NCBI GenBank assembly: GCA_947623665.1
Contig: CANQHJ010000004.1
Span: 1-38,849, forward strand
DNA: 38,849 nt
From: an uncultured Bacilli bacterium
GTDB taxonomy: Bacteria; Bacillota_I; Bacilli_A; RF39; UBA660
Direction: 5' to 3'
Part shown: positions 15,060 through 35,970 of the stretch, piece by piece
Position numbering within the stretch: the first letter of the stretch is position 1
How the letters are laid out: the number at the start of each line of letters is the position of its first letter
Translations under genes and position numbers: made by a program
The notes under the pieces: model-generated
What the model saw: the letters and a program-made list of their open reading frames with translations, nothing else
What the model was told of the DNA's origin: nothing
Databases searched by the model: none

Positions 15060-15545
15060 TTATTTTGTTTGATTAAATTTTACTCTTATATCTGTATTAT
15101 CTAAATCTTCTAAATTATCGATATGTCCTACTTTTGTATAAGTATAGGATGTATCAAAACTTTTATAAAAAATAACTAAGCAATTATTTTCATATAGCAT
15201 TACATCACCTTTTCTAATATGTTTAGGGATTGATGAATTGGTAGGATATTCTTTATCTAAGTAAATGTATTTTTCATTACCATTTAATTCTTTCATATTA
15301 AAGTCAAGTGGTAATGTTTTGAATAGCTCTTGTGTTGTTTCATTATTCTCTAATGTCAAAGTATATTTTTTTTCATTAATGATTACATCTATTTTTCTTT
15401 TAAATTTATTATTTTCATCTGTTTCATTATAAGTTGTGTTTTTTAGATTATTTTTATTGTTGTTAGATTTTGATATTATTAAATAAATACCTATAATTGA
15501 AATTATTATGGTGATGGTTATCATAATAAATATAGTTTTTTTCAT
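15060..15545 (-). CDS. Membrane-anchored cyclophilin-like-fold protein
   Basis: A 161-aa protein with an N-terminal signal or anchor (MKKTIFIMITITIIISIIGI), an Asn-rich linker, and a C-terminal domain matching the cyclophilin-like family often annotated in gut Firmicutes: TLENNETTQELFKTLPLDF, MKELNGNEKYIYL, KGDVMLYENNCLVIFYKSF and YTYTKVGHIDN. The fold is that of cyclophilin, but isomerase activity is not established for this family. I start at 15545, since GGAGA lies 5 nt upstream; an in-frame ATG at 15557 would contain this SD and has none of its own. Confidence 0.82.
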   Translation of the reverse strand: MKKTIFIMITITIIISIIGIYLIISKSNNNKNNLKNTTYNETDENNKFKRKIDVIINEKKYTLTLENNETTQELFKTLPLDFNMKELNGNEKYIYLDKEYPTNSSIPKHIRKGDVMLYENNCLVIFYKSFDTSYTYTKVGHIDNLEDLDNTDIRVKFNQTK

Positions 15546-15569
15546 ATTTTTCTCCATATTGATATAAGT

Positions 15570-15612
15570 TTAAAAGTAGGTATTTTAAACTATTATATTT
15601 ACCTACTTTTAT
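15570..15612 (-). terminator. Long hairpin between the broken small gene and the cyclophilin-like gene
   Basis: TAAAAGTAGGTA (15571-15582) pairs perfectly over 12 bp with TACCTACTTTTA (15600-15611). On the minus strand only the stem itself ends in CUUUU, so it could be a weak terminator for the upstream unit. The loop contains TATAAT (15597-15592), a possible -10 box for the cyclophilin-like gene, so an operator role is an alternative. Confidence 0.45.
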
Positions 15613-15627
15613 TATTTATAATTTATA

Positions 15628-15805
15628 TTATTTTTTCTTTTTTCTTAGTTTCTTTTGGATGATATCAAAGATTGCTAAAACTGTCCAGAAAACTCCTGCT
15701 CCAAACATCTCTATTGCAAAAATATTCTACAAAAAACCAAATTGCTGCACATAATTGCCATAAAGAAGCTTCATATTCTTCACAGAATTCATTAAATTTT
15801 TTCAT
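15628..15805 (-). pseudogene. Small membrane-protein gene broken by one base
   Basis: ATG at 15805-15803 has a good SD (AAGGAGT, 7 nt away) and reads MKKFNEFCEEYEASLWQL, then CAAIWFFVEYF, and then drifts into a wrong frame and stops. Reading on in the other frame gives FAIEMFGAGVFWTVLAIFDI and then QKKLRKKKK before TAA at 15630-15628. Dropping one T from the five-base run TTTTT (15722-15718, minus strand) joins them into one 58-aa protein with a hydrophobic middle and a Lys-rich end. The total length of 178 nt is 3n+1, as expected for one extra base. Either a recent frameshift mutation, a slippage site or a sequencing error. The family is unknown. Confidence 0.65.
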
Positions 15806-15968
15806 TTTATGTACTCCTTCCATTACATTAATAGGTTAGTATCTGAGATAATTTGAATATCTCTTTTGATGATTTTTTCGTTATTATCCATCAACTAATC
15901 ACGCTTACATTATAACTAATTTGATTTAATAGCTTTACTTCATTATTTTAGTTTTATATTTCTATATT
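15806..15968 (-). other. Leader region of the broken small gene
   Basis: Non-coding except for a possible 22-codon ORF (15891-15823) whose stop overlaps an in-frame upstream ATG (TAATG) but which has no SD. TATAAT at 15914-15909 may be the -10 box. GAGATA/TATCTC (15845-15863) can form a short hairpin. Nothing else was seen before the Nudix gene. Confidence 0.35.
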
Positions 15969-16394
15969 TTACTTTAAATAATTAAATATCTCATCTGGAT
16001 ATATTTTTAATTCTTTATTTATAAATTTATCTATGTCTATCCACATTGCATCACTTTCACAATCATCATCAACTATATGATATATTTCTTTATAATCTTT
16101 TTTCTTTATATCAACATTATAAAACAATATCAATTCATGAGCATCTTTTCCATTATAAGTGAATATATTTTCAGCAATACCTAAAAATTCTCCTACACTA
16201 ATATCTATATTAAGTTCTTCTTTAAACTCTCTTTTTAATGCTTCTTTACTATTTTCTAAAAATTCAATACCTCCTCCTATGCATCTATAAAACACTTCAT
16301 CTTTTACTTCATCATATCCTTTACTAACTAATATTTTATTTTCTTTTGTTACTATACCTAGAACAATAGGTCTTATTTCTTTAAATTTATCCAT
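15969..16394 (-). CDS. Nudix hydrolase
   Basis: A 141-aa single-domain protein with the Nudix box GGIEFLENSKEALKREFKEE followed by LNI, which fits Gx5Ex7REUxEExxU with Asn instead of the usual Gly near the end. Nudix enzymes hydrolyse nucleoside diphosphates linked to another group; the substrate cannot be predicted. The opening EIRPIVLGIVTKENKILVSKG and the sequence HELILFYNVDI fit the ADP-ribose/NTP-type subgroup. SD GAGGAGG lies upstream, and the promoter contains TGTTATAAT. Confidence 0.88.
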   Translation of the reverse strand: MDKFKEIRPIVLGIVTKENKILVSKGYDEVKDEVFYRCIGGGIEFLENSKEALKREFKEELNIDISVGEFLGIAENIFTYNGKDAHELILFYNVDIKKKDYKEIYHIVDDDCESDAMWIDIDKFINKELKIYPDEIFNYLK

Positions 16395-35730: not shown

Positions 35731-35970
35731 CCTAAAAATAAAAACAGCCATTTATCCCATAAGGGACGAATGACTGTGAATCCGCGGTACCACCCAATTT
35801 ATCAATTTCTTGATCTCTTTATAGATAACGGTCTATTTCCGGCTTAGTCTACTTAATTTCTTTAAGCACTCTGAAGTGTTTTTCAATATAGTCTTTTTAT
35901 TATCTTTCACCACTATGATAACTCTCTTTGAAAAAGGTCTATATTTACTCCTCTTCGTCTTCGTTTTACG
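35731..35970 (-). ncRNA. T-box riboswitch leader of gatCAB-aspS, probable Asn specifier
   Basis: T-box sequence GGGTGGTACCGCGG at 35795-35782 (minus). Terminator: ACAGTCA (35777-35771) with TGGCTGT (35750-35744), then TTTTTATTTTT. Stem I distal part contains AGAGAGTTATC and the loop GTGGTGAAA. On its 3' side TTGAAAAACACTTC carries AAC (35880-35878) followed by A, the Asn codon in specifier position. A GAA (35884-35882) stands just before it. Uncharged tRNA(Asn) should raise expression of the enzymes that make Asn-tRNA. Confidence 0.88.

Follow-up and report, generated by a model that had tools for sequence, protein, structure and literature searches.

The minus-strand segment 15628–15805 of the 38,849-nucleotide stretch analysed here (hereafter the window; contig CANQHJ010000004.1 of an uncultured Bacilli bacterium, presumably of the gut; assembly GCA_947623665.1) is, with a probability that we put at roughly 0.87, an ordinary pseudogene of recent origin, left from a gene for a small, lineage-restricted membrane protein, and an unbroken paralogue resides on another contig, C8, of the same genome. 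An earlier note on this DNA had listed a decayed gene among its explanations, and this is supported: the gene has unbroken homologues, and protein-level conservation is retained on either side of the break, in each case in its own frame. The lesion, however, is neither where nor what that note supposed.

The remnant and its parts

The remnant of this gene for a putative two-helix membrane protein of about 60 amino acids (aa) starts with an ATG (15803–15805), preceded by a Shine-Dalgarno (SD) motif, AAGGAG (15814–15819, minus strand), within the block GGAAGGAGTA, which is common to most of the relatives. The second frame runs to a Lys-rich end and terminates with TAA at 15628–15630. The earlier note, which gave no strand, had described the same start signals and the same end, as well as the length of 3n+1 (178 bases, or 3 × 59 + 1). 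Judging from the alignments and the profile, the 5′ part (15706–15805, minus strand), in frame 0, corresponds to codons 1–33 of the family, that is, the N-terminal helix, the first predicted transmembrane helix (TM1) and the beginning of the loop, and the 3′ part (15628–15705), in the other frame, is homologous to the second helix (TM2) and the Lys-rich tail. On the minus strand of the remnant, profile positions 1–36 align at 15698–15805 and positions 36–62 at 15631–15711. No single open frame of about 59–66 codons spans this segment because frame 0 meets a stop after 46 codons; the resulting 46-aa ORF, open from the ATG (15665–15805, minus strand), keeps TM1 and loses TM2, and its hydropathy profile has one hydrophobic peak as opposed to two in the relatives. 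The central hydrophobic stretch mentioned in the earlier note corresponds to two predicted helices in the relatives. An altered genetic code, with TGA read as Trp, was considered and rejected: four long genes of the window contain no in-frame TGA and all use TGG.

Distribution of the family

In the genome from which the window comes, a 91% complete draft assembly of 1.40 Mb in 82 contigs, the search identified the unbroken paralogue, L007, on C8; second DNA matches, on C18 and C3, were of low complexity and were dropped. The remnant matches the unbroken gene of its own genome and the copies in genomes of the same genus with protein E values of 1.8e-13 to 7.5e-18, and the family profile A3 matches both halves (front, E 4.8e-18; rear, E 3.7e-5). 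The 58-aa read-through protein, which the earlier note had put forward as a query, finds unbroken homologues in the own and same-genus genomes. Among the 60 genomes searched with it, the own genome included, 8 have a match at E ≤ 1, and the strong matches come only from the own genome and two others of the same genus; hits at E > 0.01, in G024, G034, G020, G046 and G056, were discarded as chance or unclear. When 291 genomes of the same family were searched with a profile of four unbroken members, 17 had a match at E ≤ 0.01; several of the weaker matches are probably due to chance, and the hits in G112, G191, G024, G292, G287, G124, G176 and G145 were dropped as chance or unclear. With a seven-member profile at E ≤ 0.001, matches were obtained in 10 of the 385 genomes of the order sample, all ten belonging to the same family, and in 1 of the 395 of the class sample, which is the own genome.

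In a named contig collection, 147 pattern matches were reduced to 7 loci, all of them in MAGs designated 'uncultured Bacilli bacterium Lapin-...'; six of these seven loci are, to judge by their lengths, contigs already found among the hits of the other searches. As 'lapin' is the French word for rabbit, the rabbit gut is the likely origin of the relatives. Altogether, the members comprise G000:C8, G001:C13, G001:C5, G002:C66, G134, G111, G254 and G723, along with the more distant G784, G701 and G193, and, as far as these searches go, the protein family is restricted to a single bacterial family of uncultured Bacilli. The first 54 codons are free of gaps in all eight of the closest unbroken relatives; three more distant relatives (L045, L046 and L047) have additional whole codons in the loop, as judged by eye from the alignment. 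We also noticed a 53-aa ORF at L029 (G311:C17, near 1501–1647) that is weakly similar to the family (E 3.9e-5) and possibly links it to a wider set of small membrane proteins of Firmicutes.

Site and nature of the lesion

In MAFFT alignments, the window displays one 11-nt gap, located shortly past a run of five T (15718–15722, minus strand) and falling in the loop and the start of TM2. Fixed models of the break were scored over 151 bases against eight unbroken relatives (L007, L016–L021 and L044). A single, freely placed 11-nt deletion leaves 102–119 of the 151 bases matching. When the 11-nt gap is forced into the T run, there are fewer matches in seven of the eight relatives and a tie in one (L044, 118 vs 118); an extra T combined with an in-frame 12-nt deletion gives fewer matches in all eight, by 1 to 8 bases; and an extra T alone, with 83–91 matching bases, is behind the 11-nt deletion in all eight, by 19 to 33 bases. 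The likeliest junction is 15703–15707 (minus strand), within which the best placement falls for five of the eight relatives (L019, L018, L016, L020 and L021), specifically at 15704–15705 for L019 and with an additional tie at 15701 for L020. The remaining three place it elsewhere: L017 (15706–15712) and L007 (15707–15709) slightly to the 5′ side, and L044 at 15715–15717, where placement in the T run scores equally well. L044 agrees best with the rear half, at 40 of 51 bases, yet it cannot separate the run from the bases just past it.

From these comparisons, the T run is ancestral: it is part of an 18-nt string that is identical in L018 and a 13-nt string that is identical in L017, in both of which it is read in frame within an open frame. 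Furthermore, the homology in frame 0 continues through the run, such that EYFCNRD of the remnant aligns with EYFCHRD of L019 and EYFCNKE of L018. The single-base shift in the homopolymer, after 29 good codons, that the earlier note had postulated is accordingly not seen; 11 bases are missing about a dozen bases beyond the run, and about 33 codons are in the good frame because the frame change sits past the run. The relatives do not differ from the remnant by one base within the run either, and the extra-T model matches poorest of all. With the run ancestral and the 11-nt deletion fitting best, the homopolymer explanation therefore fails, and one 11-nt deletion accounts for the change of frame. 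The practical lesson is that a suspected homopolymer slip merits checking against homologues; here, the lesion is elsewhere and of another kind.

Age of the break and recurrence of decay

The ratio pN/pS against the eight relatives is 0.24–0.82 for the front half in frame 0 and 0.22–0.73 for the rear half in the other frame, compared with 0.33–1.00 among the eight unbroken members themselves, all of these values being noisy for so short a gene. In both halves, amino-acid-changing differences are still fewer per site than silent ones, which makes the break look recent: each half looks like sequence with a protein-coding past that has decayed little since. The remnant is not the only broken member. 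L022 (6001–6120) contains an in-frame stop and L028 (982–1149) contains two, so loss is recurrent in the family; with the window, 3 of the 14 loci that we regard as certain are broken (the window, C8, two in G001, one each in G002, G134, G111, G254, G723, G784, G701 and G193, and L022 and L028; L029 in G311 was left out as uncertain).

Adjoining the deletion is a 40-nt stretch (15724–15763, minus strand) that is identical to the C8 paralogue. Outside it, the remnant and C8 are much less alike, with 34 of 45 bases matching on one side, 11 of 18 on the other and 28 of 51 past the break. The other seven relatives share identical runs of at most 18 bases with the remnant. In a simulation based on column-wise conservation in five other relatives, a run of 40 was reached in 1 of 200,000 draws, a rough figure given the simple model and the conserved region. 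A gene-conversion tract is likely.

Genomic context

The next gene downstream (15060–15557, minus strand) encodes a protein with a Cyclophil_like2 domain (PF18050), and the gene upstream (15969–16394, minus strand) a NUDIX-domain protein. An unbroken copy of the family gene is likewise followed by a cyclophilin-like gene in G001:C13 (74% identity over 111 aa to that of the window), but there a Fic gene takes the upstream position, so that of the two neighbours beside which the earlier note would have sought an intact copy, the cyclophilin-like gene is present at that locus and the Nudix gene is not. The intergenic region that separates the remnant from the cyclophilin-like gene of the window contains a 12-bp AT-rich hairpin with a long loop (15571–15611, minus strand; z −3.6), and the same kind of 12-bp hairpin is present at the syntenic G001:C13 locus (z −5.3). 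It is terminator-like; a terminator pattern search made no call at this position.

In addition, G001 holds a counterpart of the C8 copy (G001:C5), in both cases with a TetR-like gene before and a gene for a membrane protein of 268 to 274 aa after, labels that were assigned from reading the sequences. The two paralogues therefore probably predate the split of these genomes, in which case the window's genome has lost one of them. Apart from the pairs window/G001:C13 and C8/G001:C5, the neighbours differ between the loci and no conserved partner gene was seen, hence no conserved operon points to a function. Around the locus, promoter-like matches are about as frequent as chance predicts (11 vs 10.5 expected) and therefore say nothing for or against an antisense RNA, as a reading of the gene as a Type I toxin would call for. 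Elsewhere in the window, we detected a T-box leader (35759–35970, minus strand; Rfam RF00230, 119.4 bits); the minus-strand genes ending at 35751, just downstream of it, presumably resemble gatCAB and aspS.

Favoured and alternative explanations

The course of events that we favour starts from an ancestor with two paralogous genes for a membrane protein of about 60 aa, of which, in this genome, the copy beside the cyclophilin-like gene has lost 11 bases in the inter-helix loop, throwing the second helix out of frame. Translation now stops after 46 codons and could yield a one-helix fragment at most, presumably without the original function, and the unbroken paralogue on C8 may make this loss tolerable. 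Instead, the gene could be intact in the cell, with the 11 bases lost only in the assembly. The assembly is an incomplete draft in 82 contigs, and the 40-nt exact repeat shared with C8 adjoins the break, a place where a short-read assembly graph may tangle. Against this, the sequence past the break is unlike C8 (only the 28 of 51 matching bases given above), the synteny with G001:C13 is kept downstream, and the loss of 11 bases outside a homopolymer is atypical of assembly errors and not the usual type of sequencing error, so we consider an artefact improbable.

Even less probable, in our view, is that the 46-aa ORF represents a functional shortened gene. The start codon, the SD and TM1 are retained, and the cell could still make and use a one-helix product of 46 aa, but the final dozen or so residues of this product are translated out of frame and match nothing in the relatives, none of the unbroken relatives seen takes such a form, and the rear half still looks conserved in the other frame, as a recent break predicts. 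A programmed +1 frameshift in the T run, the other possibility raised by the earlier note, has very little to recommend it. UUU U permits tRNA re-pairing, and a +1 shift where the two frames overlap would join the helices into a shortened but whole protein. However, the frame change is not conserved: all eight unbroken relatives compared read a single ungapped frame and have no need of a shift, which makes slippage unlikely, and in L018 the identical T5 context is simply read in frame. The arithmetic of the joined 58-aa product was correct, but this protein is not the ancestral one, as it is missing loop residues that all eight of these relatives possess. A recent deletion in one of two paralogues thus remains our reading of the locus.

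Predicted topology and possible function

An AlphaFold model of the relative L019, built from a six-row alignment, comprises helices at residues 2–10, 12–30 and 36–58 (mean pLDDT 85.8, pTM 0.63). The predicted topology of the family is thus a short N-terminal helix, TM1, a short loop, TM2 and a Lys-rich tail, in which the two transmembrane helices would form a hairpin. Under the positive-inside rule, the Lys-rich tail suggests that both ends of the protein are in the cytoplasm. Comparison of the family members with Pfam, NCBIfam and PHROGs gave nothing above the cut-offs, no match to the family was found among the PDB sequences, and nothing significant came out of the fold comparison (best E 4.5). 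A small membrane-protein family that has no label in the first three collections at their cut-offs is a modest by-product of the analysis, the pseudogene itself being of little consequence.

Our guess, weakly held, is that the intact protein might be a small accessory or stress protein that stands alone in the cell membrane, with both its ends on the cytoplasmic side. An origin from a phage, plasmid or other mobile element was examined and rejected, given that none of 27 pattern stretches in viral contigs was confirmed and no relative was found in plasmids or phages. We consider it unlikely that the family represents a small membrane-active protein that is gained and lost in turn, for instance a gene of self-limiting or defence type that it is sometimes of advantage to lose, with the broken copy as one stage of such a cycle; the presence of several copies, their scattered neighbours and patchy distribution, the repeated breakage and the gene conversion between copies can be invoked for it.

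Among known systems, one weak profile hit connects the family with immunity_LacI (NCBIfam NF053574, bacteriocin immunity): P0004 matches it with an E value of 0.0075, but the score of 16.6 bits is far below the family cut-off of 50, and the other six of the seven unbroken members scanned gave no hit to this profile, which we therefore rejected as an assignment. Of the individual loci, the G001:C13 copy has the same downstream gene and intergenic hairpin as the remnant and a different upstream gene. The unnamed family of about 60 aa as a whole is homologous to the remnant in both halves and has the same SD block in most members; these members differ from it in being unbroken, the 11-nt gap being present in none of the eight compared. 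In a broader context, the family resembles the small proteins of microbiomes as a class, such as those of the GMSC catalogue (PMC11364881), in being shorter than 100 codons and belonging to no named family.
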